DNA of 64,000 bases from a bacterium. GTDB lineage: Bacteria > Elusimicrobiota > Elusimicrobia > UBA1565 > UBA9628. The position numbers were made by a program, and so were the translations under genes. The stretch covers positions 124,001-188,000 of the forward strand of contig JAKAQO010000003.1 in the NCBI GenBank assembly GCA_021822495.1, given 5' to 3'. The notes beneath the pieces were generated by a model that did no database searches, was not told the DNA's origin, and saw nothing but the letters and a program-made list of their open reading frames with translations. Positions 1-52,377 of the stretch are shown in pieces (the first letter of the stretch is position 1; each line of letters begins with the position of its first letter).

Positions 1-188
1 TCGCACCATTGATCCATTCCCTGATTCTGGAATTGATTGCCGAAAGTAATCCGGTCGACCGTCGCCGGATTATACTTTGAATAGCCTCCTGCGGGATCGG
101 CAGGAACCCAGCCGGAAGCGGAAGAGTCCGCATAAACAGAAGGAGAAATGAGCATTCCCCCCCAAAAAAGCCAGATTAATAATTTCAT
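1..188 (-). CDS. Exported protein, N-terminal fragment (runs off the window)
   Basis: The leftward frame opens with ATG at 188-186 and stays open to the window edge (62 codons). The start reads MKLLIWLFWGGMLISPSVYA followed by DSSASG, a clear Sec signal peptide with cleavage after VYA. The ATG overlaps the TGA of the exported kinase gene as ATGA, so the two are probably translationally coupled and share one exported-protein operon. The rest of the protein lies outside the window. The mature part seen is Gly/Asn/Gln rich and suggests no family. Confidence 0.75.
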   Translation of the reverse strand, partial: MKLLIWLFWGGMLISPSVYADSSASGWVPADPAGGYSKYNPATVDRITFGNQFQNQGMDQWC

Positions 189-1252
189 TTGGATAAGAAT
201 AAGGAAATTTTATTATCTTCCTCACGGCGCGCCAAGGCTAATTGATATTTTGCGCCTGCGGCATTGAGAAGCTTGTTGCAATCTTGAATTAAGTCCTCAA
301 TATCAACAAATGGACTGGCAAAAAGACTTCTTGCCGCTAAAAGCCCGGCGTCAATGATATAGGCCTGCGGTTCGGGGTTTGAGGCCGTATATCCCACCAT
401 GACATTGCTGGGAGTCAAATCCATAATTGAAAAATGACTGTTCAAAAATTGATTCAACATTTCACGCAAGAGCTTTAAGTCTTGAATCCCAAATTCTTTC
501 TGCCTGATTTTCGCTTCCAGAGTCTCTCCATGGACTCGCTCGGAGACGATGTAGGGAATTCCCTGAATCAGTCTGGTATCCACGGGATGAGGCGCAAGCC
601 CCAATTTGGACAATTTTTCAAGGTTTTGAAACTCTGGGTGTTCGTAAAACGCGACATTCCCATAAATTCTGCTGCCGTGGATGATTTTAACCACCCAATC
701 CGAGTTATTCGGGTGTTCAAAAACCCGTCCAAACGAACCTTCTCCCATCAGACGCGCTTTTTTTCCGGAAAGCCACAGGGCTCCCTCGGAATCATATTTC
801 CAAGTCTGCGCCTGTCCGTCAAATAAAGCGTTTCCATTAACTTTTGGACTATCCGCGATTTGGGATTTAGAAGAGGGAGTATCCTGAAGATTCAGCAAAG
901 AATGGTCCGCGGAAACAACATACGGAAGAGAAACTCCTGAGATACGGGCGGATTGAGTCTGGCGTTTTGGGGAACTAACTTTTGCGGCTTTCTGGGTAAA
1001 GGCCTCGCTTGGAAAATGAATTTCCGGCCTCAAAACCTGGTTTTGAAAATCAGGATTTTTTTCTAAGTCCTGATCCAAAAACTGAGAGGTCGTCGGCGCA
1101 ACTTCGGGGGAAGGAAGATTAAAATTAAAAGAAGGGGATTCCGATGGAATGCGCTCGGATGACTCAATAGCCCACAGCGAACGGCCCATTCCCAAAGCGG
1201 CCGCCAGCGCCCAGAAGCCTAAATTACGGATTAATTTCCGCAAAAATATCAC
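185..1252 (-). CDS. Exported protein kinase-like protein
   Basis: A 355-aa protein beginning with GTG. Residues 1-29 form a signal peptide (hydrophobic run then SLWAIE), 30-140 a Pro/Ser-rich linker, and 160-355 a protein-kinase-like fold. Visible motifs are a glycine loop GEGSFGRV (170-177), a candidate beta-3 lysine in VVKII (189), a hinge-like SERVHG, a catalytic-loop equivalent MDLTPSNVMV (D278, N283) and a DFG equivalent IDAG (D301). The HRD histidine is replaced by I/M and the C-lobe is short, as in Kdo/aminoglycoside-type small-molecule kinases. Sec export is odd because ATP is absent from the periplasm; the protein may be membrane-retained or a pseudokinase. The GTG start is supported by a TATAAT 6 nt upstream and by the shared promoter module. 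Function unknown. Confidence 0.75.
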   Translation of the reverse strand: MIFLRKLIRNLGFWALAAALGMGRSLWAIESSERIPSESPSFNFNLPSPEVAPTTSQFLDQDLEKNPDFQNQVLRPEIHFPSEAFTQKAAKVSSPKRQTQSARISGVSLPYVVSADHSLLNLQDTPSSKSQIADSPKVNGNALFDGQAQTWKYDSEGALWLSGKKARLMGEGSFGRVFEHPNNSDWVVKIIHGSRIYGNVAFYEHPEFQNLEKLSKLGLAPHPVDTRLIQGIPYIVSERVHGETLEAKIRQKEFGIQDLKLLREMLNQFLNSHFSIMDLTPSNVMVGYTASNPEPQAYIIDAGLLAARSLFASPFVDIEDLIQDCNKLLNAAGAKYQLALARREEDNKISLFLSK

Positions 1253-1258
1253 AATTAA

Positions 1259-1325
1259 ATTATAAAGGAAATTACTTTTTTAGGCTTGGGCCTAAAGGCC
1301 CATGAAGGCCTCGGCAAAGGGCCTA
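1259..1325 (-). promoter_or_regulatory. Tandem-palindrome promoter module of the exported kinase gene
   Basis: On the coding strand a weak palindrome TAGGCCCTTTGCC lies about 24 bp (centre to centre) before a strong one, TGGGCCTTTAGGCCCA (1302-1287). Twenty-two nt further is a perfect TATAAT (1264-1259), then 6 nt, then the GTG. The same arrangement with the same spacing precedes two other exported-protein genes (14858-14926, 51074-51141). The palindromes sit at and upstream of the -35 position, so a DNA-binding activator site is likelier than an RNA element. Confidence 0.7.
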
Positions 1326-13891: not shown

Positions 13892-14851
13892 TTAAGCCGA
13901 GAGATTACGGGGAGCGACGCGACCGCTATAATTAACTTTTTCGCCCGTCAGGCGAAAATAATTCCCAAAAACTTTTTTCACATAATCAATGGTCTCATGA
14001 AAGCGCGGAATCAACCCATAGCGAAAAGACTTTCTCCCCTCTCCGCTGTTGTAGGCGGCCACCATCAAAACCTTGTCATTATTAAACTTCTGTTTTAAAA
14101 ATCTCAAGTAGCGGATCATCCCCGCGATATTTTGCCTCGGGTCAAAGGGATTTGCAACTCCAAAGCGGCGCGCCGTGGCGGGCATGAGTTGACCAAGCCC
14201 CATCGCCCCTGTCCTTGAAACCGCATAACGGTTGCCCCCGCTTTCCTGCTTGACCATCGCCAAGGCCAAGTTAGGATCGACGGAATATTTTCTCGCGTAG
14301 CGATCAATCAAGCCGCGAATATAACTGGGAACTTTAAGAGCATAAGATTTAGCTTGTCCCCATCTTGAGGCGAACTCATTATCTATCCAGCTTCTATGAC
14401 TCAGACGCTTATTTGAAAGCATTGGCCGCTCCAAGGGAGGCGGAACATCAAAACGAGGGGTTTTAACCGCTGGCAAAATTTTATTAGAAGGAAACTTCCC
14501 GCGAGAAATGGGGAGAGATTGAGCCGCGAAAACCCCATAAACTCTTGGGAAATAGGCATGAGATTCTTCCCGATTAGACGCGCCCGAATTAAAAATGTTC
14601 TTTTTCTTTAAATTCGCGAGTTTCTCTTTCACGCAATCAAAATGGCTGTTTTTCTCCGTCTCCTGGCATTCTTTAAACCCTTCCAAATTGTCTTTTTGAT
14701 TTAAGTTCTTTTTTGGGGCAGAGATGGAAGCCTTTAAAGAGGCCGAACGCGCCGCGGGAATTGCGGGGCTAGAAGGAATCACCGCTCCCAACTGCGCATG
14801 CGCCGAGGAAGCTCCCAGAGCGAGAAGAAACGTCGCTATCATTTCCTTCAT
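13892..14851 (-). CDS. Exported lytic transglycosylase (SLT domain)
   Basis: A 319-aa periplasmic murein hydrolase. Signal peptide MKEMIATFLLALGASSAHA, a poorly conserved linker to about residue 190, then an SLT domain: DPNLALAMVKQESGGNRYA (catalytic Glu in QESG), GAMGLGQLMPATA, NIAGMIRYLRFL and VAAYNSGEGR. It cleaves the MurNAc-GlcNAc bond. The ATG at 14851 is preferred to a TTG two codons upstream because it fits the fixed 34-nt spacing of the shared promoter module. It is convergent with yraN with only 15 bp between. Confidence 0.92.
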   Translation of the reverse strand: MKEMIATFLLALGASSAHAQLGAVIPSSPAIPAARSASLKASISAPKKNLNQKDNLEGFKECQETEKNSHFDCVKEKLANLKKKNIFNSGASNREESHAYFPRVYGVFAAQSLPISRGKFPSNKILPAVKTPRFDVPPPLERPMLSNKRLSHRSWIDNEFASRWGQAKSYALKVPSYIRGLIDRYARKYSVDPNLALAMVKQESGGNRYAVSRTGAMGLGQLMPATARRFGVANPFDPRQNIAGMIRYLRFLKQKFNNDKVLMVAAYNSGEGRKSFRYGLIPRFHETIDYVKKVFGNYFRLTGEKVNYSGRVAPRNLSA

Positions 14852-14857
14852 ATCCAA

Positions 14858-14926
14858 AGGGTAAGTGAAAAGCCGCTCTCGCGCCTGGGCCTAAGGTCCC
14901 AGATAAATACTAGGCCTTTAGTCCCA
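14858..14926 (-). promoter_or_regulatory. Tandem-palindrome promoter module of the transglycosylase gene
   Basis: Coding strand: imperfect palindrome GGGACTAAAGGCCTA (14925-14911), then TGGGACCTTAGGCCCA (14901-14886), 22 nt, a -10-like TACCCT (14863-14858), 6 nt, ATG at 14851. The palindrome-to-start distance of 34 nt is identical to the exported kinase and LOG genes. The element also abuts the stop of the upstream GYF-like gene. Confidence 0.65.
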
Positions 14927-51073: not shown

Positions 51074-51141
51074 ATAGGCCTTTTGCCGGAGCTTTTCTAG
51101 GCCTTTTGGCCCAGGCGACTTTTCACCGTTCGCATTATCCT
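51074..51141 (+). promoter_or_regulatory. Tandem-palindrome promoter module of the exported LOG gene
   Basis: TAGGCCTTTTGCC (51075-51087), then TAGGCCTTTTGGCCCA (51098-51113), 22 nt, -10-like TATCCT (51136-51141), 6 nt, ATG at 51148. Spacing equals that at the kinase and transglycosylase genes (34 nt from the second palindrome to the start codon). It lies in the 153-bp gap between divergent ctaC and the LOG gene, so it could also affect the oxidase operon. Confidence 0.7.
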
Positions 51142-51147
51142 AATATC

Positions 51148-52377
51148 ATGAAAACACAAACACATCTTCCATCTAAAATTTGGGCGTTTTTCATCGTCAC
51201 GTTTCTGGCTACGCCCCGCGTTTGGGCCCTGCCGGAAGCCTCTCAGACCCGAGACGCCACGGATGAAATCGCGCCGGTGACTATCCCGCTCATAATTCCG
51301 CAAGATTCATTGACTCTTCCAGACCCATCCATTAATAACACCGAGCTCTTAGAAGATTCAATTTCCCCCTCTGAAAGGGAACTGTCCAGAACCTTGCCTG
51401 TCATTGAAACAAAGCAAAAATCCATCAAAACCGGCGCCAATCAAACGCTCCGGCAAACGAAAGATGGGAAAACTCCTTTTGGCCCAAGCCTTCCCGTTCA
51501 GACCGGACAAACCCTCAAAAAGTCCGAAAAAGAAGTCGCAAAGACCCTCGCGCCATTCGCCCATTCCTTAAAAGAGTCAAACGCCCTGGGGGCCCTTTCT
51601 CGTTTGATGGACGGCGCAAAAACCTTTCCGGTCGCGGATATCGGCGAAGGCGAAAGATTCGCCCGCGAGATTGAGGATGCTCCAAAGGAAATCAATAAAC
51701 AAGGAGTCGCCGCTTCCATCACCGTTTTCGGCAGCGCGCGTCTTCTTCCTCAAACAAAAGCCCGAGACGCGCACAAAAAAGCGTTAGCCCTCGCGCGATT
51801 AAACCCTGACGACAAAAACGTCCAGGAAGCGCTAAAGCTCGCTCGTCAAAATTTACAGATGTCTAAATATTATGAGGAAGCCTACCGGTTCGGCCAAATC
51901 GTCGCCCAAAAAAGCGGTGGAAAAATCGCGGTTGCCACCGGAGGCGGCCCCGGCATCATGGAGGCGGCCAACCGCGGAGCCTACGAGGCCGGCGGAATTT
52001 CCATCGGACACACCATACGCCTTCCCCATGAAGAGGCGTCCAACCCCTACATCAGCCACGGCCTTAATTTTCTCTACGATGATTTTGCCCCAAGAAAAAT
52101 GAATCTCCGGCGCGGCGCGGTGGCCCTCGCGTTTTTCCCCGGCGGTTTTGGAACGATGGATGAACTTTTTGAAACCTTGACCTTGATCCAGACCGGCAAA
52201 ATTCCGCGCGTTCCCATCGTTCTGGTGGGCAAGAAATATTGGAAACAGATTCTCAACTTCGAGAATTTTTCAAAAATGGGAGTCATCTCGCCCAAAGACC
52301 TTTCTCTTTTTAAAATTGTTGATACGGCGGACGAGGCCTGGGCCGCTTTGACCGCTGAAGAAAACGTTGCCCAATAA
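51148..52377 (+). CDS. Exported LOG-family protein (cytokinin-riboside phosphoribohydrolase-like)
   Basis: A 409-aa protein. Signal peptide to about residue 28 (ATPRVWA), a long Ser/Thr/Lys-rich linker (30-185), then a LOG/TIGR00730 domain: SITVFGSARLLPQT, GGGPGIMEAANRGAYEAGG (265-283) and FPGGFGTMDELFETLTL (catalytic PGGxGTxxE, 331-339). LOG enzymes release the base from nucleoside 5'-monophosphates and are normally cytosolic and about 180-250 aa. Sec export is unusual and suggests extracytoplasmic nucleotide salvage; the next three genes are nucleoside salvage enzymes. The start is fixed by the promoter-module spacing. Confidence 0.82.
   Translation: MKTQTHLPSKIWAFFIVTFLATPRVWALPEASQTRDATDEIAPVTIPLIIPQDSLTLPDPSINNTELLEDSISPSERELSRTLPVIETKQKSIKTGANQTLRQTKDGKTPFGPSLPVQTGQTLKKSEKEVAKTLAPFAHSLKESNALGALSRLMDGAKTFPVADIGEGERFAREIEDAPKEINKQGVAASITVFGSARLLPQTKARDAHKKALALARLNPDDKNVQEALKLARQNLQMSKYYEEAYRFGQIVAQKSGGKIAVATGGGPGIMEAANRGAYEAGGISIGHTIRLPHEEASNPYISHGLNFLYDDFAPRKMNLRRGAVALAFFPGGFGTMDELFETLTLIQTGKIPRVPIVLVGKKYWKQILNFENFSKMGVISPKDLSLFKIVDTADEAWAALTAEENVAQ

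Follow-up and report, generated by a model that had tools for sequence, protein, structure and literature searches.

In a 64,000-nucleotide stretch of an Elusimicrobiota genome (lineage UBA9628; assembly GCA_021822495.1, contig JAKAQO010000003.1, positions 124,001 to 188,000), hereafter the window, the minus-strand gene at positions 185-1252 encodes a 355-residue protein that combines a signal peptide with a kinase fold. With fair probability, this protein is an exported, probably active kinase and part of the cargo of a leaderless exported-enzyme regulon. The reading draws on six lines of evidence: the fold, the intact catalytic motifs, the signal peptide, membership in a shared promoter class, purifying selection and cysteine depletion.

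Kinase fold and catalytic motifs

The open reading frame runs from a GTG codon at 1252 to a TGA codon at 185 in a host genome of 2.2 Mb, and its product has three parts: a Sec-type signal peptide of about 28 residues (residues 1-28, positions 1169-1252), a variable leader of about 120 residues (residues 29-150, positions 803-1168) and a compact C-terminal kinase-like domain (approximately residues 151-322, positions 287-802), all on the minus strand, as are the motifs below. A preliminary description of this DNA had claimed a glycine loop, a candidate lysine and D-x-x-x-x-N and IDAG motifs, and all of them were found. The glycine loop reads G170-E-G-S-F-G-R-V (residues 170-177, positions 722-745), with G170, G172 and G175 invariant in the genus and kept in most of the branch of the family to which the protein belongs; Lys189, within VVKII, is the candidate ATP-anchoring residue (686-688); and family alignments place the catalytic loop at D278-LTPS-N283 (404-421) and the equivalent of the DFG motif at D301-A-G (344-352), preceded by I300. 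Glycine loop, lysine, catalytic aspartate, asparagine and metal-binding aspartate thereby occur in the order that defines the protein-kinase-like superfamily.

An AlphaFold2 model built from a 21-member alignment supports the kinase assignment of the preliminary description with a confident two-lobed fold (pLDDT 82.6, pTM 0.79), whose nearest solved counterparts are PRPK (Z 14.5), OspG (13.6), Rio1 (13.2) and HopBF1 (11.9). At the level of family models, PF10707 (YrbL-PhoP_reg) is the sole curated family whose cut-off the protein passes (36.0 against 31.5 bits); one further family member (L009) passes it as well, and the others score below it. The YrbL equivalog model of NCBIfam, NF007671, gave 14.4 against a required 227 bits, and PF00069, which describes the Hanks-type Ser/Thr kinases, 11.4 against 31.7 bits. 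A sequence search of the PDB with the single protein returned no match, and the family profile returned weak matches to PknB and NleH. On the strength of the predicted structure and these profile scores, the protein is a minimal member of the kinase fold, distantly related to YrbL.

No variation is seen among the four genus members in the glycine loop, Lys189, Asp278, Asn283 or Asp301. A comparison of two of the four genomes (G001 and G004) puts dN/dS at 0.088 in the kinase part and at 0.47 in the leader, which aligns at about 30% in a gap-rich genus alignment; purifying selection of this strength indicates that the kinase domain is kept up by selection, and the conserved residues suggest that the kinase is probably catalytically active. 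The best surviving alternative, which is nevertheless rather unlikely, is an exported pseudokinase, whose fold would bind or scaffold other molecules in the periplasm or beyond it, possibly the 739-residue protein encoded by the adjoining gene, with no use of ATP. The need of kinases for ATP, a compound presumed to be in short supply beyond the cytoplasm, speaks for a pseudokinase, as do a second branch of the family, with a GGGFKD glycine loop and usually threonine in place of the lysine, and a relative whose second kinase copy is degenerate (L007). The branch that includes the window protein, in contrast, retains the full catalytic set under strong purifying selection. Among the three options offered in the preliminary description (secreted effector, membrane-retained kinase, pseudokinase), secretion is thus favoured, and the pseudokinase is disfavoured for this branch.

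A shared promoter module and its regulon

The gene was claimed to lie under a shared promoter module, and this claim was confirmed by three copies in the window and by some 30 sites in each genus genome. The module consists of the palindrome GGCCTTTNGGCCCA, exactly 22 nt, a -10 box, usually 6 nt, and a start codon. Upstream of the kinase gene these elements are TGGGCCTTTAGGCCCA (1287-1302, minus strand), 22 nt, TATAAT (1259-1264, minus), 6 nt and GTG, a geometry with identical 22-nt spacing in three other genus genomes (G001, G002, G004). Additionally, a half-copy of the palindrome, TAGGCCCTTTGCCG, lies 23 bp before it (1312-1325, minus), and similar copies occur upstream of most module sites; the module as a whole thus spans 1259-1302, or up to 1325 with the half-copy. 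A second copy (51099-51141, plus strand) heads a 409-residue signal-peptide protein, and a third, more degenerate one (14858-14899, minus) heads a signal-peptide protein with an SLT domain (13892-14857).

The promoter pattern has two matches in the window against 0.03 expected in shuffled sequence. Genome-wide, the palindrome with its spaced -10 box occurs at 57 sites with up to three mismatches, against 16 for the reversed pattern, and each of five genus genomes (G000-G004) holds 28-33 sites with up to two mismatches, against 2-7 for the reversed pattern. Diverged versions of similar geometry were recognized by eye upstream of kinase genes in other genera. Among 28 downstream genes that were read, the gap from the -10 box to the start codon is most often 6 nt. 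Since a transcription start 6-7 nt after the -10 box would fall on the start codon itself, module transcripts should be leaderless.

The genes under this module differ markedly from their surroundings in their predicted export: 24 of the 28 score as signal-peptide proteins by a home-made heuristic, against 8 of 54 window genes (Fisher p 4e-10). The 28 genes were chosen, with five (L097, L098, L099, L102, L107) omitted for a short frame or the lack of a signal peptide, so that the proportion is somewhat flattering and becomes 24/33 if these are counted as negatives; at strong sites in sister genomes, selected only for a frame of more than 60 aa, 21 of 22 score positive. Cysteine makes up 0.22% of the mature regions of the 28 proteins. 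By Pfam, the cargo includes peptidases (an M1 aminopeptidase, an M3 oligopeptidase, a bleomycin-hydrolase-like C1 peptidase, an S8 subtilase and a C39-like peptidase), a trypsin/PDZ/Rce1 protein, a GH15 glucoamylase, a PLD protein, a LOG/lysine-decarboxylase-like enzyme, two SLT transglycosylases, ankyrin repeats and two FtsH-like AAA-M41 proteases, the last coming on top of two ordinary-length M41 proteins. The best reading of these roughly 30 sites per genome, mostly heading putative exported proteins, is a leaderless exported-enzyme regulon with the kinase among its cargo.

Two groups of these cargo proteins merit separate description. The extra FtsH-like proteins (L118:86-2857 and L128:90-3110, both on the plus strand) have signal-peptide-like N-termini, long leaders and no cysteine, and one contains two AAA domains; both also have TM-like (transmembrane-like) segments, which makes their topology puzzling. 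The 409-residue protein headed by the second module copy (51148-52377, plus) carries a signal peptide together with a LOG/lysine-decarboxylase-like domain (PF03641, 97 bits), a family known as cytosolic.

Many regulon proteins share an LFDG-type box at residues 129-179, which in the kinase occupies residues 143-146 (815-826, minus), as located by a position-specific scan, and which is also present in kinases of other genera. In its strict form the box occurs in 8 of 29 proteins (L113-L141), against a shuffle mean of 0.59 and maximum of 4, a count to be read with the knowledge that the pattern had been spotted in some of these proteins beforehand. Its recurrence in leaders of exported proteins that are not otherwise related may reflect a sorting, docking or processing signal.

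Start codon, signal peptide and location

The position of the -10 box 6 nt upstream of the GTG, as in other module genes, together with the conservation of the signal peptide, supports this codon as the true start. The signal peptide, MIFLRKLIRNLGFWALAAALGMGRSLWA followed by IESS, has counterparts in all three genus homologues and recurs in nearly all readable homologues from other Elusimicrobiota genera; among family members with a readable N-terminus, it was called in 19 by the heuristic and in about six more by eye. In one of the latter (L069, from G230), the signal peptide is encoded immediately upstream of the kinase gene in a different frame; an indel close to the start of the gene appears to have shifted the frame. 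The Sec signal asserted in the preliminary description thus holds, by a prediction that combined the heuristic with inspection by eye. Furthermore, cysteine is depleted in the kinase domains of the family, at 5 of 4773 residues (0.10%) against 0.87% in other window proteins. Secretin genes are present in the genome and make a route across the outer membrane possible. Export, signal cleavage and final location outside the cytoplasm are inferred from these features, and an effector acting on a target outside the cell is plausible.

Retention in the membrane, with an uncleaved signal peptide as anchor and the kinase domain facing the periplasm, appears improbable. The modest hydrophobic core and the low heuristic score (2.3, over the threshold) speak for such an anchor, but the site S25-L-W-A28, with a cut between SLWA and IE, is usable, its WA-[IL]ESS surroundings are conserved in the genus, and most module genes encode ordinary, cleavable-looking signals. 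A cytosolic kinase translated from a start downstream of the signal region, the outcome that the preliminary description regarded as fatal to its proposal, can very nearly be dismissed: the GTG has no obvious Shine-Dalgarno sequence, but the leaderless-type promoter geometry points at it, the signal peptide has been kept in the genus and across genera while the leader drifts, the promoter class mostly heads signal-peptide genes, and the kinase domains of the family are poor in cysteine.

The operon partner

The second gene of the transcription unit encodes a 739-residue protein that begins with a signal peptide; its start lies at positions 3-188 (minus strand), and it continues to the left of the window (full gene L002:13970-16189). 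It overlaps the kinase gene by ATGA, and the order of the two is kept in three genus genomes (G000, G001, G004). The proposal that the kinase heads an operon of exported proteins therefore stands as regards the exported partner; the operon is limited to these two genes, followed by a convergent beta-barrel-like gene. The 739-residue protein belongs to a family wider than that of the kinase (32/57 relatives), and a paralogue in the same genome is headed by the promoter module too (L090/L119). Pfam has no match for the 739-residue protein itself, and its weak, low-confidence model gave no significant fold match. In another genome (G017), about 5 kb separate a similar gene from that of the kinase; a barrel-like gene near that kinase was considered as a relative of the 244-residue barrel protein of the window genome and rejected, as no sequence relationship was found.

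Distribution and variants of the family

Of 340 Elusimicrobiota genomes searched with a profile, 30 contain the kinase family, most of them from the family and order to which the window genome belongs. The single protein gave no match among genome contigs, and the alignment gave the three genus homologues. The family is so far known solely from Elusimicrobiota, the phylum within which it was sought in depth. An origin as a phage or plasmid gene was rejected, with no match in phages, plasmids, viral contigs or PHROGs, and so was a defence kinase, for which PADLOC gave weak matches only (PD-T4-6, 17 bits).

Several variants depart from the simple layout. A signal-peptide protein with two tandem kinase domains (L007:742-2922, plus) has degenerate catalytic residues in the second. 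Other family members sit inside giant open reading frames of approximately 2500-5400 aa, including three of about 3300 aa that hold the same kinase domain (L028:1-10020, L029:699-10601, L030:8934-18671); the first of these also contains DAO, Sigma70_r4, M50, M48 and C39 domains in a single frame, and the third ends in a deaminase-like motif recognized by eye. In G017 (L032:5424-7642, plus), the exported kinase gene overlaps one for a 388-residue signal-peptide protein with a HEATHH motif near its end.

Relation to known kinases

YrbL, the PhoP-regulated enterobacterial member of PF10707, resembles the window protein in its compact kinase fold and in the profile match over the Pfam cut-off, but the match spans only parts of the profile and the equivalog score is far too low; moreover, we know of no signal peptide, leader or export regulon for YrbL, all of which the window protein has. 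PRPK/Bud32 and Rio1 provide nearest solved folds and share the short C-lobe, but their sequence identity to the window protein is only 16-18% and they act in the cytoplasm; in the surroundings of the kinase gene, where the search was made, no KEOPS partner was seen. The type III effector kinases OspG, NleH and HopBF1 are likewise compact (Z 11.7-13.6; NleH weakly matched by profile too), but they are injected via type III systems, whereas the window protein has a Sec-type signal peptide.

The secretory-pathway kinases Fam20C, VLK and CotH share the trait of action outside the cytosol, which for the window protein is predicted. Fam20 is an established case of a kinase acting there (PMC7948968). 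No CotH or Fam20 model appeared among the Pfam and NCBIfam matches of the window protein up to E = 1, a comparison made through these model collections and not directly with the families. Within the same genome, two receptor-type Hanks kinases (L079, L080) also combine a kinase domain with N-terminal membrane targeting; in these a transmembrane segment before the kinase domain would hold it in the cytosol, whereas no TM-like segment was found after the signal peptide of the window protein, which is thus not of the receptor type. To our knowledge, Sec-exported kinases with a complete catalytic set have rarely been described in bacteria, and the open-access literature yielded no paper describing either a kinase exported by Elusimicrobiota or a leaderless regulon for export in this phylum. 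The fold is known and its location unusual, and the promoter class and its cargo appear to be undescribed in open-access papers.

Proposed function and implications

Several observations weigh against an exported, active kinase. The signal peptides were called by eye and with a home-made heuristic, not with SignalP; the Hanks-type kinase domains of the genome are also fairly poor in cysteine (1-2 per 280 residues), so that part of the cysteine difference may be general to kinases in this genome; the loss of the lysine in the related branch implies that the fold may serve without catalysis; the linkage to the 739-residue protein is conserved in the genus only; and we know of no ATP supply outside the cytoplasm.

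If the favoured reading is correct, one leaderless-type promoter would serve the kinase gene and that of the 739-residue exported protein, and promoters of this type would control some 30 further proteins, most of them exported; the kinase would be exported by the Sec pathway, with probable cleavage of the signal; and the flexible leader with its LFDG box would carry or present the C-terminal kinase domain outside the cytoplasm. There the kinase would draw on extracytoplasmic ATP to phosphorylate a protein; the likeliest substrate would be another secreted or surface protein, or else one inside a neighbouring cell, prey or host.

A broader and decidedly tentative proposal is that this lineage runs ATP-using biochemistry outside the cytoplasm, with one leaderless promoter class exporting the kinase and the two cysteine-free extra FtsH-like AAA proteases as well as numerous peptidases and further enzymes, a shared LFDG-box leader serving as the address; the site could be an ATP-containing extracytoplasmic compartment or another cell. 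The kinase family makes the question of ATP-dependent protein modification outside the cytoplasm testable. The promoter module also gives access, through sequence, to the exported enzymes of a phylum that is nearly without cultures: genomes of the genus can be scanned for it to list its members.
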